In this document: one piece after another, positions 8,238-46,346 of the stretch
How positions within the stretch are numbered: the first letter of the stretch is position 1
Layout: each line of letters opens with the position of its first letter
Source: a virus
DNA: 46,813 nt
Direction: 5' to 3' (one strand)
Virus record (IMG/VR): IMGVR_UViG_3300042400_000841
Coordinates: 1-46,813 of that record
Notes under the pieces: generated by a model
The model's database searches: none
Told to the model about the DNA's origin: nothing
Seen by the model: only the letters and a program-made list of their open reading frames with translations
Program-made: the position numbers and the translations under genes

Positions 8238-10277
8238 ATGGTCGCAGAAAAAAATCGCATCGTTGATGGCCTCCTCACCGCTGAAGGTGGGGTGGATAGC
8301 GGTTTTTCGCCCTCACTCATTCAGCCCAACCAGCTGGCGTGGGCGGTCAACACGACGGTGCGCGGCGGGTTCCCGAAAGCGCGGCCGGGAATCTGGGTGA
8401 AGAATCTCACCTTCGATGACCCGACCGTGGTTTACAACGGTGGGTACTACAACGCGGCGGTCCAGAAGGCGTTTGAAAAAGGCCAATTCCAAGGATGCGG
8501 AACGTACATTGCCGACGACACTGACCCGTTTCTGTTTGCGTCCATCGGTGGCAAGGTCTTTCAGATTGACATCAACGGAGGGTTCAAGGTCACCGACCTG
8601 ACTCCGATCAATTTCACGTTTCAGGTACTGACTCGCGGCCGGGTTTCCAATGTCGCAACCTACGTTTGCAGCGTTCCGCACGGGTTGTCGCCGGGCATGG
8701 TTGTCCGGCTGCCTGAACCTCCAGGTGCGTTCTTTCCGGATGGGTTCTTCGGAGATTTCATTGTGGAGACCGTCCCGAGTCCCACGACGTTCACGACGTA
8801 CTCACCGGGTATTGACGCTGGCCCGCTGCTTGGTCCGTTGTTCAACGCCTACCAGATGGCGACCAACGATCCGCAGGCGTCGCACGTCTACTTTCAGCAG
8901 GCGGAGAACTGGTTGATTGTTCAGGACGGCCAGAATCAGCCCTACCTCTACAACGGTTCAACCTTGCGGCGCGCAACTGGCGATGAAGTCCCCGTCGGCG
9001 GCCCGATGGCCTACGGCAAGGGGCGCCTCTGGGTGGCTAACGGCTCAGAATACTACGGCGGTGACTTGGTCTACGGAGACCCGGCCTACGGGCGCGACAG
9101 CGTCATTCGATTCACCGAGAACACGTTCTTGAATGAAGGCGGCGCTTTTGCAGTCTCCAACGGCCCGATCACTGGACTGGCGTTTGCCGCCAACCTGGAC
9201 ACGTCGCTGGGAGACGGCGACCTGCTGGTCTTCACGCCCACCGCAACCTACGCGTTCAACGCCCCGGTCGATCGGGATGTTTGGAAGGATCTCGATTATC
9301 CGATCCAGCGATTCGCCCTGCTGAACTTCGGATCGTTCAACCATGAGTCCATCGTTGCGGTCAACGGCGACCTAATTTTCCGGGCGCAGGACGGCATCCG
9401 GTCGTTGATCTACGCTCGCCGCGACTTCACCGAGTTCGGCAACACGCCGATCAGCCGGCAGGTTGTGCGGGCGCTGGCCTACGACACAGAGTTCTACCTG
9501 ACAGCTGCTAGCGCGGTGAACTTCGACAACCGGATGCTGATGACTATCCAGCCGCGCAAGATCAATAACCGTGGCATCGTCCATGGTGGTCTTGTCGTGA
9601 TGGATTTCGATCTTGTCTCGGGCATGGGCCGTAAACTGCCCCCGGCGTGGGAAGGCGTTTGGACTGGCGTTGACGTGTTTCAAATGGTCACGGTTCGTGT
9701 GAAGCGCACGGAGCGGTGCTTCATGTTTGGATTGAACCAGGACTACATTGGTCTCTACGAGGTCACCAAGAACGGCCAGTTCGACTTCGACGGGTTCGAT
9801 GATGCGCCGATCGACTGGACGATCGAGACGCGCTCGCTGACTTTCGCAGAGCCCACCAACAAGAAGCGCCTGGTGAGCGCCGATCAATGGTATGACCAGG
9901 TGATGGGCGACATCGAATCGAAGGTCTACTTCAAGGCCAACGAAGGCGAGTGCTGGCAGCCGTGGGCCGAGTTTAAGGACTGCGCCAAGTACCGCAACTG
10001 CGAGCCCGGTGAGATTTCCTGCCCTCCGGCGGTGATCAACTGCCAGGAGGTCAAATACTACCAGCCGCCTACGCGCTCGCGCATTGCCCTGCCGCAACCC
10101 CCGGACAAGTGCGACGTGCAGACCGGTGGGTTCACCAGGGATGGCTATGAGTTCCAACTCCGCTACGTCAACACGGGCCGGTTCCGCCTCAAGCGCGTGG
10201 CAATGGTTGCTCAGCGCCTTCAGGAGGATATTTACGGCGACCTCAGTCGCGTCGCCTGTCCGCTACTCTCAGCATAA
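8238..10277 (+). CDS. Tail hub/nozzle protein, gp12-like, 679 aa
   Basis: Start ATG 8238 (MVAEKNRIVDGLL); no clear Shine-Dalgarno. The protein has the look of podovirus tail tubular protein B: an N-terminus with GVDSGFSPSLIQPNQLAWA, repeated beta-propeller-like Tyr/Asp-rich segments, and late receptor-like domains. A module at about residues 129-194 (VATYVCSVPHGLSPGMVVRL ... TTFTTYSPG) matches modules in the next protein. A Cys-rich stretch near 580-630 (CWQPW, CAKYRNCEPGEISCP, CDVQTGG) is unusual for phage tails and may be disulphide-bonded or metal-binding. The gene is first in the rightward tail operon, divergent from the terminase gene. Confidence 0.75.
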   Translation: MVAEKNRIVDGLLTAEGGVDSGFSPSLIQPNQLAWAVNTTVRGGFPKARPGIWVKNLTFDDPTVVYNGGYYNAAVQKAFEKGQFQGCGTYIADDTDPFLFASIGGKVFQIDINGGFKVTDLTPINFTFQVLTRGRVSNVATYVCSVPHGLSPGMVVRLPEPPGAFFPDGFFGDFIVETVPSPTTFTTYSPGIDAGPLLGPLFNAYQMATNDPQASHVYFQQAENWLIVQDGQNQPYLYNGSTLRRATGDEVPVGGPMAYGKGRLWVANGSEYYGGDLVYGDPAYGRDSVIRFTENTFLNEGGAFAVSNGPITGLAFAANLDTSLGDGDLLVFTPTATYAFNAPVDRDVWKDLDYPIQRFALLNFGSFNHESIVAVNGDLIFRAQDGIRSLIYARRDFTEFGNTPISRQVVRALAYDTEFYLTAASAVNFDNRMLMTIQPRKINNRGIVHGGLVVMDFDLVSGMGRKLPPAWEGVWTGVDVFQMVTVRVKRTERCFMFGLNQDYIGLYEVTKNGQFDFDGFDDAPIDWTIETRSLTFAEPTNKKRLVSADQWYDQVMGDIESKVYFKANEGECWQPWAEFKDCAKYRNCEPGEISCPPAVINCQEVKYYQPPTRSRIALPQPPDKCDVQTGGFTRDGYEFQLRYVNTGRFRLKRVAMVAQRLQEDIYGDLSRVACPLLSA

Positions 10278-10278
10278 A

Positions 10279-13200
10279 ATGCCTTCCTCAAACCCAGTCG
10301 ATTACGGTGCCGATCCCTGCGGGCTGCGCAACAGCGCCTGGGCGATCAACGAGTGCTTGTTTGCCGCCAAGCGGGCCGATTTTCCTGAAGGCACGTTTCT
10401 GCTGGGGTCGAGTCCGGGGGCGAAGATTATTGATCGCGTGCGGGTTGGAGGTGTTGCAACTTTCAATACGGCAACGCCGCACGGCTTGGTGGTGGATGAA
10501 AAAATCACCCTGTACGGATTCAGTGACGCAACCTTCAACGGAACCGGGCCGGGGCAGTTTGGGTTTCAGGTGCTTAGCACACCAAGCCCAACGCAGTTTA
10601 CCGTTTCGATGCCGTCGCAGCCAGATGCGCCACTGGTTGTCCAAGACGGTTGGATCAACCTGATCGGCGGGGGCTACACATCATCGCTAGTCATGGGATA
10701 CCCTCCCCTAACAGGCGTGATCGACAACGTCGCGTTCACTGGCAAAGGCGCCGGGAAAACGATCCTGAAGTTCGCCAACAACACCTCTACGAAAAGAGGG
10801 GACACTTTCGGCTTCAACATCCAGATGCTGAAGGTGCTTGGGAATTACATTGGATCTGGAGTCGTTGGGTCACCTGGGTCTTACCCTGGCGTTCCGTTGA
10901 ACGCGCTAAACTGCAAGAACACCCTGATCGAGGGCATCACGTTCGACGGCAACTACGCCAACAACTCGGTCGCGGACATTAAGATCGTTTCGGTGCAGCG
11001 CACCAATGGCATTAACACGTACACCGTGGACAAGCCGTTGTACGCGCCTGGGATTAACGGAACCCAATTCTACTCCCCGGCTCCCCCGGCCTACACGCCG
11101 CCAATTGTTCCTCCGCCGTACACCAACGTCAGCGCGATCGGCCAGTACATCAGCAACGTGGTTACCGCTGGGCCAGGAAACGATCTGACGTTTGTTGGAT
11201 TCGGAAGCATTACGAACGTGACCCAGCTGGCGTTCGAGCGCGACCTGCGCGTGGTGCTGATTAACGAGCGGCAGAACCAGTTCAACTACGTTACATTCAC
11301 GAAGCATCAGCAGTGGAATTTTGGGTTTACCACCAACGATGTAATCACCGTGACCGGGTTTACCGACCCGGCAAGAAACGGCACTTTCACGGTCAATGGA
11401 TTTATCGACGCGCAACAGGTTTTTTGCACGCGAACTACGCCGTACCTTCAGCTGTTTTCCTATCAGCGCCTGACCAATGTGGCGTACATTAAAACCACCC
11501 TTGCGAACAACCTGCTAGCAGGGATGATCGTGAAGATTCAGGGGGCTGCTGATGGTTCGTTTAACGGAATTTTTACGGTTACAGGTATTGTATCGCCATC
11601 AGAATTTACCGTCGCAAACGCTGGTGCTGATACTGCCATCCTCCCAGGGCTCAGTGGATCTCTGTTCCGCATCACGGAATTTAACATCGTCAATGTCGAA
11701 CGAACAGCTGGAGTGGTAACCTATGAGCTTTCTACTGACCATGACTTTGCGCCCGGAGATACGGTAAACATATCTAACGTATCAATTCCTGAATTTAATG
11801 GCACAAAGGTTATTGTTGGTCCTATTATTTTTCAAAATCAATTTAACGTCACAATCGCCGGAGCAGACGTTCCGTTGACGCCGCAGGCGACTGCCACCGT
11901 CTACAAGCCCGTCAGCCAAAACGCCCGCGCATGGGCTGTGCCGGACGTAGCACTAACGCCGCAAACCAAGGCTGGTGTCAACTCCCTCTACACGGTCGCC
12001 GGTATCAACCATGTCGGAGAGAAGGCTCTGATTCAGAACAATCAGTTCTACGACTTCGGCGTTGGCGTCGCAGATGCGGAGACGTTCATTGTAAAATCGT
12101 TCCTGCCGATGAACGTAAATGACCTGACGGCAGGCGCCAAGGTTCTCAACAACGACTTCAGCTACCAGGGGCGCAACTCGATCCAGAGCACGCTGTACCC
12201 CGGCAACGCGGAGGCCAACACCCAGTGCGCGATCGGTGGCTATTCGAGCTTGGTGAACCCGATCAACGTGGTGTCCAGAGTCGGTGGCGTTGCGACCTAC
12301 ACGTGCGTGATGAAGCACACGTTGCGGGTCGGGGATGTGGTGGTGGTAAATTCTTTCCCAGATCCCACCTTCAACGGCAGCCTCACTGTCATATCGACAC
12401 CCGACGCATTCCGATTCACAGCAAACACCGGCGGCCCGGACGTGCTTCCCGGCCTCTACCTCGATGGCCAGGTAATCATGCTGCGCAGCAAGCGGATTTT
12501 CGCCTCTGAGTGCGAGTTCAAATACAACCGCGTCCAGGGCGGACCTGACGTGGTCAACCAGCAGAGCCCAGTCCATGCTATCACAGCCCGCGAAACCAGC
12601 GGGATGGACGTCAGCTACAACAACTTCGACGGGTTCCGTGGGACCTGCTTCTACGTCGATTCCTACCAGCACAAAGGCACGCACATTCACCACAACTCGG
12701 CGTTGAACGTCTCAGCGTTCATCTCGCTGGTGGTGCAGGATTGGTATTCATTGATTCAAACTGTTACACCCCCAGTTGCGAACCCAGAGACCTACTCAAC
12801 GCTGATCGCGGCCCACAAGGATATGCTGATCGAGAACAACGACGTTCTCCTCACAGGCCCTGATTCATGGTTTTACCAGACCGCGTTCGCGCCGCTGGAT
12901 GCGGTGTTCCTGATCAACAACCATGACGTAAATAAGTCGAAGTATTACTACCCAACGGACTACCAGATTCCGATTAGGCCAGTGGCCCCGCCGGCTCCAC
13001 TTCCAACAGGGGCATCAAGAAACGGAGCCGGTATATCGACGTTCAACACGGTTTCCCCGCATGAGCTTCAAGTGGGGATGGAAATTTCCGTGGTCGGCGT
13101 TACAGACGGGACATTCAACGGAGTGTTCACCGTCCTTTCAACTCCTTCGCCCACGCAGTTTACGGTCAACAACCCCGGGGTCCCAGGCACATCAGGAGGA

Positions 13201-13692
13201 GGTTTTCTTGGCATCAACGACCCCGTTAAATTCCCATGGGAAATCCGCCCAATCGGATACCAGCGCACCGGTGGCGTCGCCACATACACGACGGACAAGG
13301 CTCACCAACTGGTGCTTGGCGCTCACGCGACGGTCGAAGGGCTTAGCAACGCTTCGTTCAACGATGAGGTGATCGTGACCGGCACTCCGACGCTCTACAC
13401 ATTCACCTGCGCAAGTCCTGGCCCAGACGTGCCGTTTACCTCTGAGACCGGCAATTTCTTCCGGTACGTCGATAACATCCAGATCGGCTGCAACACGGTC
13501 AGGCGTCTGAGCGGAAACAGCTTGGTTGTAAACAACGGCGGCCGGTTTGGGACGTCATTCCTCCAGGGGCGTCCGGTACGCTGCGTTGCCCCGCTGGAGC
13601 AGTTCTTCTATTTCGATTGTCCCGAGGGCTGTTTGGCGCTTGAATGCGACCCCGGCCCGTGTAAGCCCAACGATTACGTTTACCGCATCTAG
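10279..13692 (+). CDS. Tailspike/tail fibre, beta-helix with inserted repeat modules, 1137 aa
   Basis: Start ATG 10279, right after the stop of the hub gene. The opening (VDYGADPCGLRNSAWAINEC) is typical of right-handed beta-helix pectate-lyase-like spikes (YGADPTGxxDSTxAI). Later segments with NCKNTLIEGITFDGNY, NNDFSYQGRN and ECEFKYNRVQG are the periodic Asn-rich turns of a beta-helix. At least seven inserts of about 60 residues follow a common pattern, (V)GGVATY...HxLxxGxxVxVxGxxDxxFNGxFTVxxxPSPTxFTV, near residues 53-114, 334-390, 397-453, 468-534, 662-724, 910-973 and 992-1054. Such modules are often labelled E1-FCCH-like in phages. The middle part (11450-11860) is visibly AT-richer than its flanks. 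Likely host polysaccharide binding or degradation. Confidence 0.8.
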   Translation: MPSSNPVDYGADPCGLRNSAWAINECLFAAKRADFPEGTFLLGSSPGAKIIDRVRVGGVATFNTATPHGLVVDEKITLYGFSDATFNGTGPGQFGFQVLSTPSPTQFTVSMPSQPDAPLVVQDGWINLIGGGYTSSLVMGYPPLTGVIDNVAFTGKGAGKTILKFANNTSTKRGDTFGFNIQMLKVLGNYIGSGVVGSPGSYPGVPLNALNCKNTLIEGITFDGNYANNSVADIKIVSVQRTNGINTYTVDKPLYAPGINGTQFYSPAPPAYTPPIVPPPYTNVSAIGQYISNVVTAGPGNDLTFVGFGSITNVTQLAFERDLRVVLINERQNQFNYVTFTKHQQWNFGFTTNDVITVTGFTDPARNGTFTVNGFIDAQQVFCTRTTPYLQLFSYQRLTNVAYIKTTLANNLLAGMIVKIQGAADGSFNGIFTVTGIVSPSEFTVANAGADTAILPGLSGSLFRITEFNIVNVERTAGVVTYELSTDHDFAPGDTVNISNVSIPEFNGTKVIVGPIIFQNQFNVTIAGADVPLTPQATATVYKPVSQNARAWAVPDVALTPQTKAGVNSLYTVAGINHVGEKALIQNNQFYDFGVGVADAETFIVKSFLPMNVNDLTAGAKVLNNDFSYQGRNSIQSTLYPGNAEANTQCAIGGYSSLVNPINVVSRVGGVATYTCVMKHTLRVGDVVVVNSFPDPTFNGSLTVISTPDAFRFTANTGGPDVLPGLYLDGQVIMLRSKRIFASECEFKYNRVQGGPDVVNQQSPVHAITARETSGMDVSYNNFDGFRGTCFYVDSYQHKGTHIHHNSALNVSAFISLVVQDWYSLIQTVTPPVANPETYSTLIAAHKDMLIENNDVLLTGPDSWFYQTAFAPLDAVFLINNHDVNKSKYYYPTDYQIPIRPVAPPAPLPTGASRNGAGISTFNTVSPHELQVGMEISVVGVTDGTFNGVFTVLSTPSPTQFTVNNPGVPGTSGGGFLGINDPVKFPWEIRPIGYQRTGGVATYTTDKAHQLVLGAHATVEGLSNASFNDEVIVTGTPTLYTFTCASPGPDVPFTSETGNFFRYVDNIQIGCNTVRRLSGNSLVVNNGGRFGTSFLQGRPVRCVAPLEQFFYFDCPEGCLALECDPGPCKPNDYVYRI

Positions 13693-14676: not shown

Positions 14677-15765
14677 ATGAGAAAAACCCTCGCCCAAGCC
14701 AAGAACTCCACGATCGCACAGGCTGTTGGTCTGGCCACCTGCGACGATCGCTTTCTCCAGCTGCTGAACGAGGCTCAGGCGCGCCTGGCTGACATGGGCA
14801 AGTGGTGGGGCACATACAAGAAGCTCCGCGTCTGCGTCACCGCCGGCTGCATCACCTGGCCTCGCGAGGTCAAGACGATCGAGGCGATGAACGTCTGCGG
14901 CTACAACATCCCGATCCAGAACCAGTGGTACGAGTTCCAGACGGACGAACGCGCACCGCGCACCGGGTGCGGCCGTGAGGGCTGCGAGCAGGAGCAGCTG
15001 CTAGATCGCGGCATGGTGACTCAGTTCCGTGATTCCGTCGGCAACTGCTACATCCGCGTGCAACCCCAGCTGTCGGCCGATGCTGGCAAGCGCGTGCTTC
15101 TCCAGGGGCTAGACCCCAACGGCAACCCGATCCGCACGCTGGACGCGGTCACCGGTGAGTACGTTTGGGGCGAGTACGTCACGCTGCCTAACCCGGCCGT
15201 GACCGCCTACGTTCAGACGGTCAATCTCTTTAAGCAACCGGGCCTTACCGGTGCCCAGAAGCCGCTGACTCAAGGCAGCCTGACGATTCTGGCGTACAAC
15301 CCATCGACTACCCTGCTGACCCAGGTGGCTGTCTGGGGGCCGAGCGAGCAGAACCCGGAGTATCGGCGCACCTACCTGATCGGTATGCCCGAGGTCTGCG
15401 GCGGCACCTCCGGGTGCAACGCGGAAGCGCAGAACGACTGCATCGACCATGGCGACGGCTGCGTGCCTCCAGATGAGGCCTGCACCAACACGGTGGTCGA
15501 AGCCATCGTGCGCCTGGACTTCATTCCCGCAGTTGTGGATTCAGACTGGCTGTTTATCGGCAATCTCCAGGCCATCAAGCACATGATGAAGGCCATCCAG
15601 AAGGAGGACCGGAATCAGTACACCGAGGCCGAGCGCGAGATCCAGTTGGCCCTGCGCAGCTTACGCAACGAACTCGAAGCCTACAGCCCGAACGAGCGCA
15701 CGGTAGTAAACGTGCAGCCGTTTGGTTCGGCAAAGATCCAATACCGTTTCGGAGGGTTTATCTGA
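14677..15765 (+). CDS. Tail adaptor, gp11-like, 362 aa
   Basis: An N-terminal helical region (LAQAKNSTIAQAVGLATCDD, RFLQLLNEAQARLADMGKWW) is a good match to the T7 gp11 or gp4-like head-tail adaptors that bind the portal. The middle is beta-rich; the C-terminal third returns to helices with KHMMKAIQKEDRNQYTEAE and ALRSLRNELEAY, another adaptor feature. Several Cys clusters (GCGREGCEQE, CGGTSGCNAE, CIDHGDGCVPPDEAC) are unusual and parallel those in the hub protein, so the two may share a metal-bound or disulphide-stabilised tail. Its stop overlaps the start of the next gene by one base. Confidence 0.8.
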   Translation: MRKTLAQAKNSTIAQAVGLATCDDRFLQLLNEAQARLADMGKWWGTYKKLRVCVTAGCITWPREVKTIEAMNVCGYNIPIQNQWYEFQTDERAPRTGCGREGCEQEQLLDRGMVTQFRDSVGNCYIRVQPQLSADAGKRVLLQGLDPNGNPIRTLDAVTGEYVWGEYVTLPNPAVTAYVQTVNLFKQPGLTGAQKPLTQGSLTILAYNPSTTLLTQVAVWGPSEQNPEYRRTYLIGMPEVCGGTSGCNAEAQNDCIDHGDGCVPPDEACTNTVVEAIVRLDFIPAVVDSDWLFIGNLQAIKHMMKAIQKEDRNQYTEAEREIQLALRSLRNELEAYSPNERTVVNVQPFGSAKIQYRFGGFI

Positions 15766-16220
15766 TGGAAGTGGCTCTGGAAAAACCGATGACATGGTTG
15801 GATTTCCTCGCGGACGAGTCCGTGTCGTTTGACGACCGTCTCGACCGCTGGGAGGCATTCGTTGCCAACCTTCCTCCGCAGGAGTGCCCGCTGAAGCACA
15901 CGTTCCCCGAGGGGATGTACGTGCGTGAAATCTTCATGCCAGCTGGATCGGTGATCACCAGCCGTATCCACAAGTTCGACAACCCGTTCTTCATTACCCA
16001 AGGCAAGGTCACGGTGGTCAGCGAGAACGAGGGGCACGTGACCTACACGGCGCCATACTCAGGAATCACGAAGCCCGGAACTCGCCGGGTGTTGCTGATC
16101 CATGAGGACACGATCTGGACCACGGTTCACCTGAACCTCGATAACAAGACCGATCACGAAGAGCTTTTGAACGACCTCACTTACATGAGGCAAAACCAAT
16201 ACTTACCATGTCATTCGTAG
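15765..16220 (+). CDS. Cupin-like protein, 151 aa
   Basis: After a helical N-terminus (MTWLDFLADESVSFDDRLDR) the segment MYVREIFMPAGSVITSRIHK, FFITQGKVTVVSEN and YSGITKPGTRRVLLIHEDT follows the strand order of a cupin barrel: G(x)5HxH-like first motif (VITSRIHK, with a single His) and a second G-containing motif (GTRRVLLIHEDTIWTTVH). This small double-stranded beta-helix occurs next to gp11-like genes in other podoviruses. Only some of the metal ligands of enzymatic cupins are present, so a structural or binding role is more likely than catalysis. It overlaps the gp11-like gene by 1 base and the next gene by 13. Confidence 0.75.
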   Translation: MEVALEKPMTWLDFLADESVSFDDRLDRWEAFVANLPPQECPLKHTFPEGMYVREIFMPAGSVITSRIHKFDNPFFITQGKVTVVSENEGHVTYTAPYSGITKPGTRRVLLIHEDTIWTTVHLNLDNKTDHEELLNDLTYMRQNQYLPCHS

Positions 16221-18176: not shown

Positions 18177-21100
18177 ATGCCCATCGAAGTCGATTTTGGA
18201 ACGGAGCTTGGAACCGTAGTTTTCCCAGAAGATTACACCCAAGAACAGGCTTTCGACTTCGTAAAGCAAAACCGGGATCAAATTCGGAAGAATTTAATCC
18301 AGCGACGTCAGCAAGAAATGGCTGGCGAAACTGAGCAGCTGGAAGCAGCCAAGTTCCGCGCTGGTGAGTTCGGCACGGTCGAGACCGTGCTCAACACTCT
18401 TTCCGAGTTGCCGCGTGGGGCGTTGGAAGGAATTGGAGGAACCCTCAAGGGAGCAGCCCGTGTTGCCACTTTTCTTCCTCCGCCAACGGTCAACCCGTAC
18501 ACCGGAAGGAAGATTGAGCAGACTGCCGAAGTGCCCTTGGAACAGGAGCCGCTTTACCGCGCTGGCCAGGCCGTCCAAGAGTTTGGAAAGGAAACCTATC
18601 CTGGCCTCCCTGGCGTCCGAGAGTCGATTCCCGCTCAAATCATGGGCGGTATCGGAAGCACGGTTTCTACACTTCCAGCTGCGGTAATTGCTGGTCCGGC
18701 CGCTCCCTTGGGGGCCGCCATCTCTTACGGACTTCAATCAGGTGAGTCAGCAGCCGAAGAGGCTGATGCTACGATCAACCGTCGTATTGCTGAGGCGCTA
18801 GCCAACCAGCAGTACGATCTCGCTGCGGATCTTCAAGACCGCCGCGAGCAGAAAAAGAATCTGGCATTCGCCACAACCGCTCCCATTGGCGCTGTCACCG
18901 AGGGCTTGCTGGGCGCAGCGCCTAAGGTAGCCAAGCGTTTTGTCACCGGCCGAATCGGAGGCATCGGGGAAAGACTTGCCGAGAGGTTGGTTCCTCAGTC
19001 TGCCAAGTTCCAAAGGAAGTTCCTTGGGGTTACTGGCGCCGAACGTGTCCGAGGCGCGGTAGAAGCGCTAGCAACCGAGGGCGTCCAAGAGTCAGCTGAG
19101 CAGTTCGGTGGAAACATTGCTGCCGCAGCAGTGTACGATCCTGATCGTGGATGGCTGGATGGCGTCGCCCAGGCTGGTTTGATTGGAGCTGCATCTGGAG
19201 GTATTGTCGGCGGCCTGGTTGGCTCGCGACGTAATGCTGACCTGGCGAATGCTGCGGCCGAAGCCGTGGGTGGTAATCCTGACAATCCTTTGCCGCGTGC
19301 TAACGCCACCGTAGCCGGGATGGAAGACGGCACTCAACCCATTGGCCCGATTGAAATCGAGCCCGATGTTACGCCAGAAGAGGTACTGAAGAGGTCCCAG
19401 GAACTGGGCATTCCGGTGCCTCCGGAAATGGTTACGCCTGCTCCCACTCCTGCACCCGCTCCTACTCCTGCTACTCCTGCGGCGGCGACTCCCGTTACGC
19501 CCGCGCCTACTCCGGCGCCTGCTGCTGCCGTCACGCCTGCGCCCGCTGCCGTTGTGTCACCAGCTGCACCTGGCGAGCTTGAGCCCGACGAGCAGGCCGA
19601 ACTCGATGCACTGATCGAGAAGGAGGATGCCGGGACACTCACTGAGGATGATAGCATTACGCTGGCCTTCTACCGCTCCCGCTTAGGATTCCCCGCTCAA
19701 CCACCAACTCCCACACCCAGTGCCGTTCAAGAACAAGGCCCAGATGAAGGCGTGCTTCGCCGAGAAGAACCGCAACCCCCAGTCCAAGTGGAACTGCGAG
19801 AAGTGGATCAAGGAGGGAGGCCTGCCGAAGTCGGAGGGGCCGAAGCCGAAGTCACCCCGGAAGAAGTACAGCAAGTAAAGGCTGAGGTGGTGCCGGAGAC
19901 CCCAGTGCCTGCCCCTACCCCTGCGCCTGCCCCTGAGTACACCCCGGCGCGAATCAACAAGCTGTTCAGGACGCTCAAGGCTAGGGCTACAGCTGTCGGC
20001 AAGGGGTTGTACGAGATCAAGAAACTGGCTCCCGGACAGCGAGTAGTTCTCCGTAATCGCTTTGGCGGGCTTCAGGAAACCGACCAGTTTCTGTTACGAG
20101 AGAAATCGCAGGTGACGGGTAATCCTTACGACGAAGGATATATTCTGCGCGACAAGCAGGAGGCGACGGCTGGCGAAGCGCCGAGGCCGGCACCTGCACC
20201 TGCCCCAGCTGAACCCACGCTTCAATACACAGATGAGGACTTTGCAGCTGCTCCAAGTCGTGAAGCGGCCAGCAACATGGCGGTCACTCAGGTCCGCACA
20301 AACCCATCTTTGCCGCCACGGCCACCGCAGATTTTCTACACCCTGGAGGCCGTCGCCAATCGCGCTGCAAAAAAACCTTACGATCCGAAAAACCTCACAG
20401 CAGAACTTATCAAGCAGGCTCAAGATTCGGGCCTTCTCACTGCTGCCAAGAATCCAAAACTCACAGCTGACGGGCAGCGATCGCTCGCCGATGGACAGCG
20501 TCAATCCCAGGAGCGAAAAGCAGCACAAGCAAACCTGAGCGACGCTCTTCGGGAACGTGCTGTGTTGGCCTGGGATGCGGCAAACGATCCTCAGTCAGCG
20601 GCGTACAGGGAGAGGATTGCGGCCAAACCCGCCCCGGCCCCCGCTGTCAAACCCGCTCCGACCCCCGCCCCGGCACCCCAAGCCGACCCCAACGAAAAAC
20701 TCGCTGCATTCATCGAAGATGTAGATGGCGCGATCACGAATCTCGAATCGCCAGCCAAGCTGCGTGCGATGGTCAAGAAGGCCGTTGCCGCTGGCTACAT
20801 CACAGCCAGAGATGCTGCTGAGATCGCCAGCGTTCAGAAGTCCATGGGCAGCGCGGAAGACACGACTGATGCGTTCGGTGAGTTTGCCGGCTACCTGAAC
20901 ATGGAGTTGGAGAAGCGGAGGAAGGCTCCGGCGGCGCCTGAGCTAGCCATCTCGGAGGAAGTTGAACTCAACGAGCTACGTATCTCAAAGCAGCAACGTG
21001 GTCGCTTAGGTCGTCTCAATGAAGAGCGTCTTCAGGAATTGGAGAAGAAGCTGGCGCCTGCTCCAGCTAAACCAACCGGTGCTGCTGGTATTGAAGAACG

Positions 21101-24100
21101 TGGCGCAGTGATGCAACGCGCCGAAGCTGGTCTTGCAGGGCTAAGACCACGCAAGCAGATCACAATGGATGTCTTGCTTCAGAAGACCCGCAACGAAGTT
21201 GAGCGGCTGTTGCGCGACGGTGAGATCACTGAAGATCAGTTTTACCAGTACGCGAAGGAGTGGAACAAAACCACGCGACTGGGAGAAAAGATGCAGGAGG
21301 GACCGTTAACTCCTGCTCCAGCTGCGACTACACCTGCAAAGAAGGCCGCCAAAGATCCCGCGACCATGACGGCCAGCGAGATCAACAAAGAGTTGGATCG
21401 CTTGGACGCCGAAAGCTCTGCTATAACGCAAGAGCTTATCGACACAGGTCGTGGATCTGAGTTGACCAGCGAGACACTCAAGAAGACCGATCCGCTATTA
21501 CTTCGTGCAGCAGCAAACAACGAACGTCAGTCAGACCTACGTCGCGAAATTTCTGCTAGATACGGCCCGAACGCGCCGAGCCGTTTGCCGGCAGGCCAGA
21601 AGGGTTTTGGGCCAACTAAGAAGGCCCCGAAAACCACCGCCAAATCCGCCATCGAGGCCATCGACAAGGTCAGCAAAGGCCTGTCGGAAAACCAATACTC
21701 TGACCCGCTGTTCCTGACGCCGCTGGCGAAGCTAGCACTGCAAATTGCCAAGAGCCTTATTCAGGCCGGCATTGCTGTGGACCAGGCGATTCGCCAAGCA
21801 ATCACGCAGGCTCGCCAGCAGCTTCCGAATGATCCTGCTGACGACATTCAGTTAGCTGACCGATTGATTCGCGATGCGCAGTACACCGAGGCTGTCGCAG
21901 CTGGTGACATGGAGACGGCGCAGCGGATGGTGGATGAGGCGGCTACCGTATCTGGTGCATATCGCGGAATCGGAAAGCGACTGTCCGATTGGGCTAGGAA
22001 TTTTACTGACCAAGCCACTCGCCAGGTACGATTCACGAATCCATCAACTGGAGAACAAGCGACCTTTGGAGATGTTATATCCGATCTGCAATCAATCTCG
22101 GATGAAGCTGCTCCAGAATACGTTCGATGGCTGCAAAGTATTCCGAACAAATCCACTGCGGCAGCTGACATAGTATCCGACATTACGTGGCTTGCTCGAT
22201 TGCAACCTGCGATAACCCGGGATGAGGCCGGAAATCCAATCCCGCTTTCTCAACGGTTTCAGTCAACCACCGTCGCCAAACCCGACCGCGTCGAAGCCCT
22301 GCTCCAAAAAGTCATCGCGGCCACCGATCCTCGGGGTAAGGCCTTCGAGGCGATCACTGCGTTGTCGTCCGTCGTAATTTACCAGGCGACCAAGATCGCG
22401 CTGCGCATTTATCAGTCCACGAAGTCGTGGCTTGCTGCCCGGAATGCTGGCATGGACTACATCAAGTCCCACGTCCAGTTGCAGAACGAGGCGGAGACCG
22501 CTGCGAACTTCGAGGAATTTCTCAAGGCTGTACCCAACCAAGAAATCCCTGCTGGCACGCCCGAGTTGCCGCAGCCGCCGTCGCCAGCTGAACGCGTTGA
22601 ATCGCGAGGCCTGTTTGTCGGCGACATCGAACGTGATACCGATGAGAACTGGGCGTCCGAGGCAAAAAAGTGGGTGGACTTCTTCAAGGGCAACCTTGAG
22701 CGCGCATTCCAGGTTGTCCTCACCGCAGACATCGACAACGCGTTTAAGGAATACATCCTTGGTGAAATCATCCAACGCAACCAGTTGGACATCGCCCGAG
22801 CCAAAGGCGTCGAAGTCCTGCGAGCGTTAAACCTTGAGAAGCGACTGGCAGAGTCAGCAAAATCGCTTGGTGCCATCACCGCTAAGGCGATGGCCGCTCG
22901 TAAGCTCGCTCAAGAACGCTTTTGGTGGGCGCAGCCGGCGATGATTCTTCGCAACCTGATTCGCAAGCGTCAGGATGAGTTGATCCCGTTCTCGAAGATT
23001 GAGTCTGAGCAGGTGCGGAAATGGCTTACCGAATCTGGCCGCGAGGCTGTAAACCAGATTCGCGAGGCTATGAAGAAGGCGGACAACGTGTTTGCCCGCG
23101 AGTTCCGCAAGATCAAGCAGGTCCCGGGTGAGCCTGACGGCCCTCCCATCGAGATCAAGTGGCAGGACATCCTCACTCAGGCTCTGGATACCCAGGGCTC
23201 CGTGCGGCAGAAGATGCTTCAGGTTATCCTGGCTGACCCCCGCCTGCGCAACCTGAGCCCTGCTGGAATCGCAGAGATCACAAATCTCCTGACGACGGCT
23301 TGGGAAGCAAAGCGGAATCAAATCTTCCGGGCTGAGTTCCAGAAGAAGGTACCGCTGCCGAACGTCAAACCGGACCTTCGCGAGAAGCTCTTCCGTTCTA
23401 TCCCTCGCATCCTGAAGTACGCCAACATCGCGAGAGCCACCCCGGGCAGCTTCTCGATTCAAGACGGTCCTGACACCTTTCTGCTGTGGGAGCAGGCCTT
23501 CCGCGATGCAGTGGCGCCTGAGTTTGGTGTCGCTGAATTAAACGGCGTCACGGCCCGCAAGATTACCGATCTAGCCCAGAAGGCGCAGGCTCAAAGCGGA
23601 GTCAACCGCAACGAGATCATCCAGCAGATGTTCCGCCTCATGGCCCGCGAAGGCGGCGTGCGGTTCTCTGATGTCCTTCGCGATTACTGGTACGCGGCCG
23701 TGCTATCAGGCATCCGGACGCAGGTGGACAACGCGTTGAACGTGTTCAACGGATTCCTTAACACAGCCATGTTTGCTACCATGGCGAAGAAGGATGCCGG
23801 CTTCATAGCCTACTCCGCGCTTAAGGGTCTCGACGAAGGTATCCGCGATTTCTGGCCTATGCTTTGGCGTGGCGAGCTTTACCGCTCCGTCAACTTCAAC
23901 CCTGACCAACCCGGAAGCGCCCTCGAAGGACTGGGTCAGTCTCGCAATCTGTTTGCCAAGGGAATCAGTCAGTTCAAGTACGTTGGTCGGCTCATCAACG
24001 CGCTCGATCACATGACTGCGCTGATGTCTGATTCAACCGCTAAGGCATACGCGTTGCGCAAGTTGTACGGCCCCGAGGTTGCGCGCCAGTATCTCACTCC

Positions 24101-25445
24101 GTCACCAGAAGTGGTCGCTGCGGCGCGAGTCCGAGCCATCGCCGAAGGCACCCGCCCCGAACTGGTCAACAAGCGCACCCGCGAAATCATCCAAGAGAAA
24201 CTGCCTGTCGAAATTTTGCTGACCTCGAAAGAGATCCGCGAGATGACCACGTTCACTGAAACACCTCAGGGATTACTTGGAAGTCTGTACCGTGGTCTGG
24301 ATCAAGCGGCTCAGGGCAAGACGCTCTACAAGGTCCTGTCTGGAACGAACTTCCTGCGGTTTGCAGCAAACTCTGCAAACGAGATTCTGAACTTCGCTTT
24401 TCCAGTCGCGTTTATTCGGTACTACCAATCCGCACCTGGAAGGTCAGAAGGCGAATACGGCCTGAAGTTTTCCGAGTCGCGCCGCGACCTTCTCTTGGCA
24501 AAGGCAGCGTTTGGAACTGCGTTGGGTATCTTTGCTGGCGCCTTGTTCCTCGGTGACGATGACAAGGAAGAGGATCGCAACATCGACATCACCGGGTCGT
24601 TCAAGTCCCTCGATCCGAACAAGCGCAAACAGCTGCTAGCGGAAGGTCGCCAGCCGTATTCCATTCGGTTCGGCAATACCTACGTGTCCTACCGCCAGCT
24701 GGGCTTTGGTGGTGTGCTTGCGACCATCGGTGAACTCCGCGATCGCCAGCTGTTCTCCCCGGACAAGTGGTCCCAGGAAAACATCGTGGAAAAAGTCCTG
24801 GATGGCGCCGCAGCTGGAATGTTCATCGTAAAGGACTCGACCGCGATCTCCGGTCTGACCGAGCTTCTAGGCTTTGCCAACGCCTACAAGTACGACACTG
24901 ACGAGTTCATCGAGAAGTCCTTCCCGCGCTACGTCTCGCGTCTGGCAGGTTCTCTGGTGCCCAACATCCTGAAGGAAGTCGATGCCTGGTCTGACCCGTC
25001 GATCTTCAAGACTGAGGCCGGCAACCTCGGCTACGAATACTTCCTTCAGCAGGTGCCGTTCGGCCGTCGGGAGATCGGGCCTGGTCCGATCCTCAACGTG
25101 CTGGGTGAGCCAGTTAAGGTTGAGCGGTATCCGTGGAGTCGGTGGGCCAAGGAGCGCGAAGACGATCTCGCTTGGGGCACCCTTGGTAAACTCGCCAGCC
25201 GTGGCGTGTTTATGCCGACACCGGCGATCACCGTGAAGGTCAACGAGAACGGCACCCGCCGCGAGCTAACCCGTGAAGAGAAGTACCAGTACCAACAGGC
25301 CGTTGGTCAGGGTTACCGCAAGTTTATCGAGCAGAATTCCAAGCGTCTGCTAGCACTTCCGCCTGCCGAAGCGGCGGACTTTATCGACAAGAACGCAGAC
25401 CGCATTCGTCGGAATGCCCGAACAAATCTGAAAAATTCGTTCTGA
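18177..25445 (+). CDS. Giant internal virion/polyvalent protein with LPD38-like C-terminus, 2422 aa
   Basis: One gene makes up about 15 percent of the window. The N-terminus (IEVDFGTELGTVVFPEDYTQ) has the small domain that opens many phage ejection proteins. Residues to about 390 include two hydrophobic Gly/Ala stretches. Four or more Pro/Ala-rich linkers (near 418-460, 575-590, 665-685, 810-845) separate charged helical modules. From about 1820 to 2200 the pattern (RFSDVLRDYWYAAVLSGIRT, LTSKEIREMTTF, PYSIRFGNTYVSYRQLGFG) is what I know as the LPD38-type domain of polyvalent proteins, with a hydrophobic helix near 2105-2126. These proteins are thought to be injected with DNA. I see no lytic transglycosylase or polymerase motif, so any enzymatic role is open. 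Confidence 0.8.
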   Translation: MPIEVDFGTELGTVVFPEDYTQEQAFDFVKQNRDQIRKNLIQRRQQEMAGETEQLEAAKFRAGEFGTVETVLNTLSELPRGALEGIGGTLKGAARVATFLPPPTVNPYTGRKIEQTAEVPLEQEPLYRAGQAVQEFGKETYPGLPGVRESIPAQIMGGIGSTVSTLPAAVIAGPAAPLGAAISYGLQSGESAAEEADATINRRIAEALANQQYDLAADLQDRREQKKNLAFATTAPIGAVTEGLLGAAPKVAKRFVTGRIGGIGERLAERLVPQSAKFQRKFLGVTGAERVRGAVEALATEGVQESAEQFGGNIAAAAVYDPDRGWLDGVAQAGLIGAASGGIVGGLVGSRRNADLANAAAEAVGGNPDNPLPRANATVAGMEDGTQPIGPIEIEPDVTPEEVLKRSQELGIPVPPEMVTPAPTPAPAPTPATPAAATPVTPAPTPAPAAAVTPAPAAVVSPAAPGELEPDEQAELDALIEKEDAGTLTEDDSITLAFYRSRLGFPAQPPTPTPSAVQEQGPDEGVLRREEPQPPVQVELREVDQGGRPAEVGGAEAEVTPEEVQQVKAEVVPETPVPAPTPAPAPEYTPARINKLFRTLKARATAVGKGLYEIKKLAPGQRVVLRNRFGGLQETDQFLLREKSQVTGNPYDEGYILRDKQEATAGEAPRPAPAPAPAEPTLQYTDEDFAAAPSREAASNMAVTQVRTNPSLPPRPPQIFYTLEAVANRAAKKPYDPKNLTAELIKQAQDSGLLTAAKNPKLTADGQRSLADGQRQSQERKAAQANLSDALRERAVLAWDAANDPQSAAYRERIAAKPAPAPAVKPAPTPAPAPQADPNEKLAAFIEDVDGAITNLESPAKLRAMVKKAVAAGYITARDAAEIASVQKSMGSAEDTTDAFGEFAGYLNMELEKRRKAPAAPELAISEEVELNELRISKQQRGRLGRLNEERLQELEKKLAPAPAKPTGAAGIEERGAVMQRAEAGLAGLRPRKQITMDVLLQKTRNEVERLLRDGEITEDQFYQYAKEWNKTTRLGEKMQEGPLTPAPAATTPAKKAAKDPATMTASEINKELDRLDAESSAITQELIDTGRGSELTSETLKKTDPLLLRAAANNERQSDLRREISARYGPNAPSRLPAGQKGFGPTKKAPKTTAKSAIEAIDKVSKGLSENQYSDPLFLTPLAKLALQIAKSLIQAGIAVDQAIRQAITQARQQLPNDPADDIQLADRLIRDAQYTEAVAAGDMETAQRMVDEAATVSGAYRGIGKRLSDWARNFTDQATRQVRFTNPSTGEQATFGDVISDLQSISDEAAPEYVRWLQSIPNKSTAAADIVSDITWLARLQPAITRDEAGNPIPLSQRFQSTTVAKPDRVEALLQKVIAATDPRGKAFEAITALSSVVIYQATKIALRIYQSTKSWLAARNAGMDYIKSHVQLQNEAETAANFEEFLKAVPNQEIPAGTPELPQPPSPAERVESRGLFVGDIERDTDENWASEAKKWVDFFKGNLERAFQVVLTADIDNAFKEYILGEIIQRNQLDIARAKGVEVLRALNLEKRLAESAKSLGAITAKAMAARKLAQERFWWAQPAMILRNLIRKRQDELIPFSKIESEQVRKWLTESGREAVNQIREAMKKADNVFAREFRKIKQVPGEPDGPPIEIKWQDILTQALDTQGSVRQKMLQVILADPRLRNLSPAGIAEITNLLTTAWEAKRNQIFRAEFQKKVPLPNVKPDLREKLFRSIPRILKYANIARATPGSFSIQDGPDTFLLWEQAFRDAVAPEFGVAELNGVTARKITDLAQKAQAQSGVNRNEIIQQMFRLMAREGGVRFSDVLRDYWYAAVLSGIRTQVDNALNVFNGFLNTAMFATMAKKDAGFIAYSALKGLDEGIRDFWPMLWRGELYRSVNFNPDQPGSALEGLGQSRNLFAKGISQFKYVGRLINALDHMTALMSDSTAKAYALRKLYGPEVARQYLTPSPEVVAAARVRAIAEGTRPELVNKRTREIIQEKLPVEILLTSKEIREMTTFTETPQGLLGSLYRGLDQAAQGKTLYKVLSGTNFLRFAANSANEILNFAFPVAFIRYYQSAPGRSEGEYGLKFSESRRDLLLAKAAFGTALGIFAGALFLGDDDKEEDRNIDITGSFKSLDPNKRKQLLAEGRQPYSIRFGNTYVSYRQLGFGGVLATIGELRDRQLFSPDKWSQENIVEKVLDGAAAGMFIVKDSTAISGLTELLGFANAYKYDTDEFIEKSFPRYVSRLAGSLVPNILKEVDAWSDPSIFKTEAGNLGYEYFLQQVPFGRREIGPGPILNVLGEPVKVERYPWSRWAKEREDDLAWGTLGKLASRGVFMPTPAITVKVNENGTRRELTREEKYQYQQAVGQGYRKFIEQNSKRLLALPPAEAADFIDKNADRIRRNARTNLKNSF

Positions 25446-25472: not shown

Positions 25473-25492
25473 CATACGTTGACTGACGTATG
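25473..25492. promoter_or_regulatory. Inverted repeat covering the recT-like start codon
   Basis: CATACGT and ACGTATG form perfect 7-bp arms around the 6-base spacer TGACTG; the ATG of the right arm is the annealase start codon at 25490. It lies in the only gap (44 bases) between the virion block and the recombination block. It could be an operator for a dimeric repressor or a hairpin hiding the start codon. No Shine-Dalgarno sequence is visible ahead of this ATG. Confidence 0.5.
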
Positions 25493-26512
25493 AGCAACCA
25501 ACTGCAAGTAGCAACACAGCAACAGCAACCCCTCAGCGCCTTCTCTTCGGAGAACGCGTTCGTCTCAGTTCAGAGGATGGCCAAGGCTTTGGCGTCCTCC
25601 ACGCTCGTTCCCGATTCCTATCGGGGCGAAGCCAACCTCGGTAACTGCATCATCGCGCTGGAGTTATCTCAGCGGATCGGAGCCTCGGTCATGGCGGTGA
25701 TGCAGTCCATGGTCCCGATCCACGGCAAGCCCACCTGGAGCGCCGCGTTCCTGATCGCCACCGTCAACAGCTGCGGCCGGTTCAGCCCTATGCGGTTCCG
25801 CTGGGTCGGCAAGGAAGGCGCCGACGACTGGGGCTGCCGCGCCTACGCCGTCGAGCGCGAGGGAAACCTGGAACTGGTCGGCGCGCTGGTGACGATCGCC
25901 ATGGCCAAGGCTGAAGGCTGGTACGGCAAGACGGGTTCCAAGTGGAAGACCATGCCGGAACAGATGCTCCAGTACCGGGCTGCAGCGTTCTGGACCCGGG
26001 CCTACGCGCCGGAGATCGCGTTGGGTATGCACACCTCGGAAGAGGTCCACGACACGCAGGCGGCCCAGCAGGTTGTGCAGCCGTCCATCGCCACCACGGT
26101 CACCGCGTCCGTCGTGGACGTGACGCCGACGCCGCCAGAGCCAAAGCCGCGCAAGAAGAAGGTCGAGCCCGAGCCCGCGCCGGTCGCGGTTGTCGATCCG
26201 GCGGTTACTGAGCCTACGCCTGTACCGCAGCCTGAGCCAGCGCCCGCCCCCGTAGAGACTCCAGTTGCGCCTGAGCCGACGCCGGCTCCACTGCCTTCGG
26301 TCGATCCTGCGGAGCAGACCGCCGAATCCACCCTGGCCCAGATCGGCATCACCTACGCGCAGCTGGCGAAGCTCGCCACAGACCTGGAGTGGTGGCCCGA
26401 TGCTGACACCTATCCCACGGTCGCTGACCTGCCGCTGGAGATTCAGAACTGGGTGATCCGCAACAAGCGTGGCATCGCCCGTGCGTTCCAGAAGGCGGGA
26501 GGTGTGTTGTGA
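25490..26512 (+). CDS. recT: RecT-family single-strand annealing protein, 340 aa
   Basis: Anneals complementary single strands during phage recombination and replication. Residues 20-175 carry the typical RecT pattern: YRGEANLGNCIIALELSQRI, VMQSMVPIHGKPTWSAAFLI, ATVNSCGRFSP, MAKAEGWYGKTGSKWKTMPE and MLQYRAAAFWTRAYAPEIAL. The rest is a long Pro/Ala/Thr linker (about 205-275) followed by a small C-terminal helical domain (LAQIGITYAQLAKLATDLEW), which is not in the core family and may contact the partner nuclease or SSB. The next gene, an exonuclease, overlaps by 4 bases, giving an annealase-nuclease pair like RecE/RecT. Confidence 0.9.
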   Translation: MSNQLQVATQQQQPLSAFSSENAFVSVQRMAKALASSTLVPDSYRGEANLGNCIIALELSQRIGASVMAVMQSMVPIHGKPTWSAAFLIATVNSCGRFSPMRFRWVGKEGADDWGCRAYAVEREGNLELVGALVTIAMAKAEGWYGKTGSKWKTMPEQMLQYRAAAFWTRAYAPEIALGMHTSEEVHDTQAAQQVVQPSIATTVTASVVDVTPTPPEPKPRKKKVEPEPAPVAVVDPAVTEPTPVPQPEPAPAPVETPVAPEPTPAPLPSVDPAEQTAESTLAQIGITYAQLAKLATDLEWWPDADTYPTVADLPLEIQNWVIRNKRGIARAFQKAGGVL

Positions 26513-27303
26513 AGCTCGTCCACCCCATCGACGTAAACACCTACCGGAACCACCCGGCAATCAACATCAGCAGCCTAAAGGCGTTCTCACGCTCACCAGC
26601 CCACGCGCTGGTGGGGTTTGAGGAGGAGAAGGAAAGTACCGAAGCCATGGCTATCGGTAGCCTGCTGGACCACAAGGTTCTCGGGACGCCGTACCTCTGG
26701 ACCACGTCGCCATACGACGACTACCGCACCAAGGAGGCACGCGCCTGGAGAGATGAGCAGACCGAGCGGGGTGTCACCGTGTTCAAGCACGACGCCATCG
26801 AGATCGTCGAACGCATGGTTGAGTCCGTGCGCAAACACCCGGTCGCCGGCCGGATCTTCGCAGAGCCCGGCAAGGCCCAGGTGGGGATGTTCGGTGAGTT
26901 CGAGTCCTGCGAACGCAAGGGCCTGATCGACTGGCTCCCCAACACAACGCCGGTGATCGTGGATCTCAAAAAGACTCGCGATGCTAGCAAGGCTGGTTTC
27001 CGCCGGCAGATTGGCCAGCTGCGCTACGACGTGCAGGCCGCGTACTACCGGGACTTGTACCGGGACATCACCGGCGAGACCCGCGCATGGCAGTGGATCT
27101 GCGTCGAAGACGCGGCTCCCTACGCTGTGGCTGTCTACCAACTGGACACCGAGTCACTCGACAAGGCATCGACCGTTTGGCAGTCGTGGGTCCGCCAGTG
27201 GATGGTCTGCGAAGACACCGACAGCTGGCCGGGTTACAACGGTGATTCTACCCAGATCATTCAGTCGCCCACCTGGATCCTCAAAGATGAAGCTCTCCCG
27301 TGA
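26509..27303 (+). CDS. PD-(D/E)XK exonuclease, RecE-like, 264 aa
   Basis: GTG start overlaps the recT stop (GTGA). The family's N-terminal SSLKAFSRSPAHAL and AMAIGSLLDHKVLG come first, then the nuclease core: ERKGLIDWL (Asp141), VIVDLKKT (Asp152, Lys154) and a Gln/Tyr helix (QIGQLRYDVQAAYYRDLY) near 168-185. This is the layout of the PDDEXK-like family known as DUF3799, usually coupled to RecT. It should resect double-stranded DNA from an end to make the strand that RecT anneals. I see complete catalytic residues, so it is probably active. Confidence 0.9.
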   Translation: MKLVHPIDVNTYRNHPAINISSLKAFSRSPAHALVGFEEEKESTEAMAIGSLLDHKVLGTPYLWTTSPYDDYRTKEARAWRDEQTERGVTVFKHDAIEIVERMVESVRKHPVAGRIFAEPGKAQVGMFGEFESCERKGLIDWLPNTTPVIVDLKKTRDASKAGFRRQIGQLRYDVQAAYYRDLYRDITGETRAWQWICVEDAAPYAVAVYQLDTESLDKASTVWQSWVRQWMVCEDTDSWPGYNGDSTQIIQSPTWILKDEALP

Positions 27304-45083: not shown

Positions 45084-46346
45084 ATGCCTACTCCTTCAAT
45101 TCAAACCCTAAGGACCGATGCGCAGCAGGTGCTGAACCTGGATTCCATCTCTGCCGTCCGGTCGGTCGTCGCCGCAACCTTGGCCAACGCCAACGCCGGC
45201 ACGCCGCTGAACCCGAACCTGACCACGCAACAGCTGTGGAATGAGTTCTATCAGATCGTCACGCAGCCGAAGTCCGACATCGAGTCGATCATCGCGAATC
45301 AGCTGATGAAGTTCCTGTACGCTCCGCCGGCCCCGGGTGGCGTAGGTGCGAATGGCCAGGTGATCTTCAATGATGGGGGCGTGCTAGCAGGGGATCCGCA
45401 GTTCCTGTGGAACAAAACCACGAACCTGCTGACGGTCACTGGCTCCGCCACCATCACCGGCGATCTGACGGTGGCGACTGATCGGCTGAAGGTTACTGGT
45501 GGCAATGTTGGTATTGGCACTGCCACTCCTACCAATTACGCCAATTACACGACGCTGACGATCAACGGAACCAATGGTGGCGAGATTGATCTGACGGATG
45601 GCGGAACGCTTCGTGGTCAGTTGTTTTCCGAAAGCACCGGACTCACGCTGGCTGCTGTTGGCGGGTTGATTAAGTTTGGTGCTGGAACTGGTGGCACTGA
45701 AAAAATGCGCATCGACTCCTCCGGCAACGTCGGCGTGGGGGTTACGCCGAGTGCGTGGGGTGCTGGGACTAAAGCGTTGGAGTTTGCAAACGGATCTGTG
45801 ATTTCGTTTGCGGGTTACATCGGAACCATTGGAACCGCTAACTCTTATTATAACGGAAGTAATTTTCTTTTCAAAACTGCGGCAAATGCGGCGCGTTACG
45901 ATCAAGATAATGGAGCGCACAAGTTTTATCGCAGCACAAATGTAAGCCCGTCTGCTGGAGGAACAATTACATTTGATCAAGCGATGACGCTCGACGCGAG
46001 CGGGCGATTGCTTGTGGGAAGCACGGCAGCATTCACAGACCTCACCGGATCGAGAGAGGTTAAAATCGGTGACGGCGGAATGCAGACGCTTACCGTTGCA
46101 TCGTTACCAGCCGCAACAGCCACAAACATCGCTCGTGGCGGTGTTGGCGGTTTGGTCTATGTCGGAGGATACAATGGAACCGGTCAATACGGTGCTGTTG
46201 TGTTGTGGACTGCCGCATCCGCAACCGTTGTTTCCGTAATCAACGGAACCGGATCGACCATTACGTTTGGAGTCTCTGGCGGATTCCTGCAAATAACTTC
46301 CAGCCTCGTTCTGACTCAAGTCACCGGAAGCTGCATCCGTCTTTAA
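45084..46346 (+). CDS. Tail fibre with NVGIGT-type repeats, 420 aa
   Basis: An N-terminal helical part (TDAQQVLNLDSISAVRSVVA) of about 85 residues probably anchors the protein. Then come beta-strand repeats: NKTTNLLTVTGSATITGDLT, VTGGNVGIGTATPTNYANYT, SSGNVGVGVTPSAWGAG, SGRLLVGSTAAFTDLTGSRE, a pattern typical of phage tail fibres with GxVGIGTxxP motifs. The C-terminus is another beta domain. No S74-type autoprotease motif seen at the end. Last third is more AT-rich than the first. It is a receptor-binding candidate beside the spike at 10279. Confidence 0.8.
   Translation: MPTPSIQTLRTDAQQVLNLDSISAVRSVVAATLANANAGTPLNPNLTTQQLWNEFYQIVTQPKSDIESIIANQLMKFLYAPPAPGGVGANGQVIFNDGGVLAGDPQFLWNKTTNLLTVTGSATITGDLTVATDRLKVTGGNVGIGTATPTNYANYTTLTINGTNGGEIDLTDGGTLRGQLFSESTGLTLAAVGGLIKFGAGTGGTEKMRIDSSGNVGVGVTPSAWGAGTKALEFANGSVISFAGYIGTIGTANSYYNGSNFLFKTAANAARYDQDNGAHKFYRSTNVSPSAGGTITFDQAMTLDASGRLLVGSTAAFTDLTGSREVKIGDGGMQTLTVASLPAATATNIARGGVGGLVYVGGYNGTGQYGAVVLWTAASATVVSVINGTGSTITFGVSGGFLQITSSLVLTQVTGSCIRL

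Follow-up and report, generated by a model that had tools for sequence, protein, structure and literature searches.

Mosaicism of receptor-binding proteins is known at the scale of entire N- or C-terminal domains, and small beta domains of the Ig-like and FN3 types are spread promiscuously over virion proteins as decoration. Among the barrel insertions in beta-helix depolymerases, those of LKA1 and KP34 line and deepen the groove (PMC5701251, PMC10653864), the enzymes in DepoCatalog contain at most two insertion domains each (PMC13385381), and TspA of RcGTA has one insertion and a C-terminal barrel (PMC13420450). The GH110 alpha-1,3-galactosidases consist of a beta-helix core and two small beta-barrel domains (PMC7939477), and the barrel of K1F both provides one of three sites for polysialic acid and is a hotspot for host discrimination (PMC12632334). 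Here, we describe a tailspike-like protein with seven to eight such barrels, encoded in a viral sequence of 46,813 nucleotides (IMG/VR record IMGVR_UViG_3300042400_000841, positions 1 to 46,813), hereafter the window.

A repeated module in the spike gene

The spike ORF (10279..13692, plus strand) encodes 1137 amino acids that form a beta-helix with inserted barrel modules, and starts one base past the stop of the upstream gene. A profile search of the window identified a module of about 70 residues in seven clear copies (amino acids 50-127, 332-398, 395-465, 469-543, 661-733, 911-977 and 991-1063) and one diverged copy, in line with a preliminary description from the sequence that had counted at least seven. 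A profile built from the modules yielded 68-98 bits for the seven spike copies and for one copy in the upstream protein. The leave-one-out profile scores were 21-64 bits, as compared to at most 15 bits in 2000 shuffles of each module.

All features described below are on the plus strand. Module M1 (amino acids 50-128; 10426..10662) is located directly after the N-terminal cap motif. The diverged module M2 (amino acids 236-320; 10984..11238) contains an extra loop and is modelled with low confidence; by score it is a stub in the window, and the profile match extends further in L061 and L063, among other relatives. A tandem array, array 1, begins with M3 (amino acids 322-398; 11242..11472) and continues with M4 (amino acids 391-465; 11449..11673) and M5 (amino acids 466-545; 11674..11913). 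M6 (amino acids 661-735; 12259..12483) has a loop from the third strand to the FNG turn (amino acids 691-697; 12349..12369) that is empty in the window and is the site of a nested module in other family members. The last two modules are M7 (amino acids 909-980; 13003..13218) and M8 (amino acids 989-1063; 13243..13467).

The pairwise identities among the modules of the window are 19-49%, so that their description as old copies was correct. An AT-richer stretch noted at the same time coincides with M4 (GC 0.50, GC3 0.52) and M5 (GC 0.45, GC3 0.44), the latter having the highest AT content of all modules; GC3 values in the remainder of the spike are 0.57-0.83, above both.

The upstream tail-region protein (8241..10277), which is 84-91% identical across the family, contains a single module (amino acids 127-205; 8619..8855; profile match over amino acids 128-205 at 87 bits), present in one copy in every relative with a locus spanning that gene. 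The module of this protein had thus been recognized correctly, but no family match was found to back the accompanying label of hub protein. The module was absent from all other ORFs of the window and of 77 related loci. The C-terminus of the spike (13579-13689) is cysteine-rich and conserved (...CPEGCLALECDPGPCKPNDYxYRI), and a cysteine-rich stretch is also present in the upstream protein (9951-10112); these stretches possibly form disulfides or a metal site.

Adhesin-like matches occur elsewhere in the window. Positions 15765-16220 match a short tail fibre / tail fibre adhesin family (phrog_12032, 2.4e-29) and may represent a second adhesin in the phage, and an ORF at 45084-46346, distant from the other tail genes, matches a tail fibre family (phrog_9942, 1.2e-12). 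The structural region also includes a single ORF of 2422 amino acids (18177-25445) with no convincing Pfam match, for which the best PHROG hit (phrog_24492, E 0.003) was not convincing either.

Fold of the modules and the rod

The spike was modelled with AlphaFold as a single chain using 53 family sequences, yielding a pLDDT of 63 and a pTM of 0.52; the model is unreliable over the C-terminal 60 residues and in some stretches of the rod. In the model, the modules share one strand order (strand-strand-strand-turn helix-strand-strand-strand), with pLDDT values of about 75-90 in array 1 and M7 and 55-80 in M1, M6 and M8. The segments outside the modules are mostly short beta-helix strands of mixed confidence. 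The strand order in the model and the insertion or deletion of whole modules in relatives indicate that the barrels interrupt the beta-helix. The module is thus predicted to be a small six-stranded beta-barrel with a repeated fold, inserted in a beta-helix. The strand pattern and the tailspike matches below support, with moderate confidence, the original assignment to a tailspike beta-helix.

A Foldseek search of the PDB with the whole spike placed GH110 enzymes at the top (1e-8), followed by the phage tailspikes LKA1, K1 lyase and AP22 and then by endosialidases; since the TM-scores were low, these matches support the class and not the detailed model. Neither the full-length spike nor the upstream protein had a match in profile searches of the PDB, and a search of NCBIfam gave nothing useful. 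The closest solved structures to the module by sequence profile were endosialidases (4hiz, E 0.0076; 1v0e, E 0.025). The Pfam family of the endosialidase barrel, PF12195 (End_beta_barrel), scored 11.8 bits against the whole spike, below the curated cut-off of 35 bits, and gave a best single-module E-value of 3.5e-4 with no score above the cut-off. When the M6 region was modelled together with a nested module, the prediction matched endosialidase barrels (4hiz and 3gvk, probability 0.97-1.00) as well as E1 FCCH domains (6dc6 and 5knl, probability 1.00, E ~1e-3) in Foldseek. The module thus resembles the endosialidase barrel weakly by sequence and clearly by fold. A kinship to E1_FCCH, as proposed initially, was borne out by the fold but not by the Pfam scores for PF16190 (12.3 and 16.8 bits), which were below the curated cut-off of 29.5 bits.

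About 300 annotated phages contain similar modules, located in proteins of the baseplate, fibre, tail and head region; these include the Microbacterium phage ‘major tail protein’ and the baseplate wedges of cyanophages. A module is also found in a protein of 286 amino acids encoded three genes downstream of the portal in L081 (3485-4345) and L080 (3470-4330), which are Yersinia and Klebsiella phages; the annotation of this protein as ‘endosialidase’ in one record was probably prompted by the barrel alone. Many predicted viral proteins also contain similar modules, the best match being A0A6G6XIJ2 (TM 0.68). Since this predicted match covers much of a nested pair of modules, nesting may exist outside this spike family.

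Module content varies among relatives

Relatives were collected as 77 loci from two scans, all of them metagenome viral contigs, and variation was counted over 58 distinct spikes. Neither the complete spike nor the upstream protein had a relative among 50,697 phage records. One contig of 3.1 kb (L105), which carries the upstream gene with an identity of 74%, belongs to an Actinomycetota MAG, a weak hint at the host that may be a binning accident. Another record (L064) is 92531 bases long, about twice the length of the relatives, and contains a second, weaker RecT match; it may stem from a phage of larger size or from contigs joined in assembly.

The number of modules per spike ranged from 5 to 9 across the 77 relatives, and differences in spike length corresponded to whole modules. 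Array 1 consisted of one, two or three modules: M4 and M5 are both absent from one-module relatives, M5 is absent from most relatives, and the extra module in the three-module arrays is either M4 or M5. The third array-1 module of L053 seems to be an independent gain. A search with M5 of the window alone gave no matches.

A whole module was nested inside M6 in 27 of the 58 distinct spikes. In these, the match to the M6 profile breaks at about position 31, a full module is inserted, and M6 then continues at about 31-43. Because the outer halves of M6 are the same with or without the insert, the extra module is nested, and a fusion of two tandem modules was ruled out on the same grounds. The nested barrel was predicted with a pLDDT of about 90-95; in the model, a long ribbon of two strands connects it to the module that hosts it. 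Two clearly distinct nest types, A and B, were observed. The matches obtained in a search for a wider source of nest A were nearly all known contigs of the same spike family. With M1, array 1, M6 and M7 taken as four sites, 38 combinations were observed among the 58 distinct spikes.

Exchange at fixed sites

To place these changes on a phylogeny, we used a protein tree of the 58 spikes from which array 1 and M6 had been left out. On this tree, the state of the nest (none, A or B) changed at least 17 times and the array-1 count at least 7 times. The L003 and L007 spikes share 97-100% identity over most of their length, with dips to 85% in single 20-codon bins; the exception is the stretch at amino acids ~676-737. 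Conversely, the nests of L033 and L043 are 97-100% identical, as compared to ~75% over most of the gene. Rods that are only 78% identical can carry nests that are 98% identical, and in several pairs the nest identity was 15-20 points above the rod identity.

We also examined 47 pairs of spikes whose rods share 95% identity or more, and scored segments with an identity of more than 15 points below that of the rod. Such drops were observed for the right half of M6 in 53% of the pairs, M7 in 28%, M1 in 21% and M2 in 13%, whereas rod segments and M8 never showed them. On a DNA tree built from the rod alone, the homoplasy excess was highest for M7 (+9), followed by M6 (+6), M1 (+3) and array 1 (+1), with 0 for M2 and M8; the rod segments are partly circular controls here because the tree was built from them, and M8 is a fair, independent control that is itself short and conserved. 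M1 and M7 are thus exchanged among relatives, and M8 is not.

In a tree of modules, the copies clustered by position, with 10 label changes as compared to a minimum of 8 and a mean of 97 for shuffled labels, and the module of the upstream protein formed a separate clade on a long branch. The exchange is hence allelic and not between genes: the earlier idea of module exchange held among alleles at one position and failed for different tail genes. An exchange between the spike and the upstream protein was ruled out by the same grouping. The dN/dS ratios within alleles were 0.12-0.21, indicating that the modules are maintained. Taken together, these computations show gain, loss and exchange at specific sites along with purifying selection within alleles.

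A candidate for the recombination engine is encoded downstream, where genes for a RecT-like single-strand annealing protein (25490..26512; phrog_561, 1.6e-64) and an exonuclease VIII-like PDDEXK nuclease (26509..27303; phrog_412, 5.5e-61) adjoin with an overlap of 4 bases. RecT was found in the window and in 17 of 18 relatives tested, and the match to exonuclease VIII was found in the window. Lambda Red recombines sequences that are 22% diverged (PMC2327257), and the RecT/exonuclease pair is a plausible engine of the module exchange.

Discussion

We consider it probable, at roughly 60%, that the protein is a host-recognition tailspike in which a fixed rod carries barrels that serve as auxiliary glycan-contact modules and are exchanged at several sites with the help of the RecT/exonuclease pair. 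The conserved beta-helix rod would bear about eight barrels at fixed places, namely at the N-terminal cap, in the tandem array, in mid-helix and in the C-terminal part. Given the precedents of K1F, LKA1 and KP34, we consider the barrels to be auxiliary contacts to surface polymers, most likely glycan-binding or groove-shaping as in the K1F-type endosialidases and the LKA1- and KP34-type depolymerases. Modules at M6 and its nest, M7, M1 and array 1 would be swapped, gained and lost as the conserved flanks recombine homologously, a process probably assisted by the phage's own RecT/exonuclease pair, with the rod and M8 remaining fixed. In one type of allele, a long beta-ribbon extending from within a module would carry another module at its tip and lengthen the arm. 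The presumed outcome is that contacts to surface polymers are altered and the rod is not rebuilt. The binding of sugars, the effect on host range and RecT as the agent are inferred. An extended reach or altered glycan contacts, as suggested in the preliminary description, would fit with the nested module on its predicted ribbon and with the endosialidase precedent, respectively. A more far-reaching version, in which the spike is combinatorial, with glycan-binding barrels traded independently at three or more sites (M1, M6/nest and M7) plus a variable array within the phage population, nesting included, is less likely than not.

The chief rival is that the barrels are structural decoration in the manner of Ig-like domains, acting as spacers and stabilisers that have no specific ligand, with the exchange being neutral recombination of permissive insertions. 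It owes this position to the presence of the module in virion proteins that need not contact the host, such as the upstream tail protein, the Microbacterium and cyanophage proteins and the near-portal protein of Klebsiella and Yersinia phages. Neutral insertions should not, however, focus change on M6, M7 and M1 with M8 fixed; in addition, the alleles are under purifying selection and a solved homologous barrel binds polysialic acid (PMC12632334), which makes this explanation rather unlikely. That the barrels instead are parts of a catalytic groove, like the insertion domains of depolymerases, and vary with the polymer cleaved, would agree with the nearest Foldseek neighbours of the spike, GH110 and the tailspikes, and with LKA1, phi297, AP22, KP34 and GH110, where one or two barrels complete an intra-chain active site (PMC10653864, PMC7939477). 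Yet seven to nine barrels far exceed the need of one groove and the rod, the expected location of the active site, is constant while the modules vary, so we regard this as improbable.

Finally, the mosaics could mostly be chimeras assembled from strains that occur together, with the divergence reflecting the usual rapid evolution of loops. The relatives are all metagenome contigs, the conserved flanks of the nest could misjoin strains, and some combinations, such as that of L003, come from one metagenome only. Against this, the same combinations were recovered from independent metagenomes (L030, L031 and L050; L033 and L034; L023-L028 and L045; L042-L044) and are not easily explained as chimeras, although some single ones could be. 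Nor can fast loop evolution yield near-identical alleles in distant rods, and we assign this scenario a very small chance.

Among the described systems, the closest to the host-recognition spike proposed here are the beta-helix depolymerases with a barrel insertion (LKA1 gp49, phi297 gp61, AP22 gp54, KP34 gp57 and RcGTA TspA; ‘class 2’ of DepoCatalog), with LKA1 and AP22 among the Foldseek matches of the spike. The described enzymes have one insertion, or two at most in the K47 enzymes (DepoCatalog class 2D), whereas the spike has 7-8 in the window and as many as 9 in the family. Also unlike in those enzymes, the barrels of the spike belong to one sequence family, are arranged in tandem, are nested in relatives and are exchanged on a constant rod. 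The endosialidase barrel (PF12195; K1F and phi92) has the same fold and is the best solved profile match, but it belongs to a beta-propeller sialidase and the module scores under the Pfam cut-off. E1 FCCH (PF16190) shares the small-barrel fold and gives a weak profile match below its cut-off, and the spike has no ubiquitin-pathway context. GH110 enzymes likewise combine a beta-helix with barrels, but have two barrels only, were dimeric when solved and match with a low TM-score. The Ig-like and FN3 decorations have a different fold, and in the spike the copies keep their positions and only the alleles move. Beta-helix depolymerases with one or two inserted barrels are already known, whereas the number and dynamics of the barrels in this family look new. 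Rather than whole terminal domains, the units of exchange appear to be single barrels of ~70 residues at fixed insertion sites in one protein. The family also provides cases from nature in which a domain lies within a homologue of itself, and natural matched pairs with the same rod and different modules or different rods and the same module, which make the assignment of modules to surface contacts directly testable.
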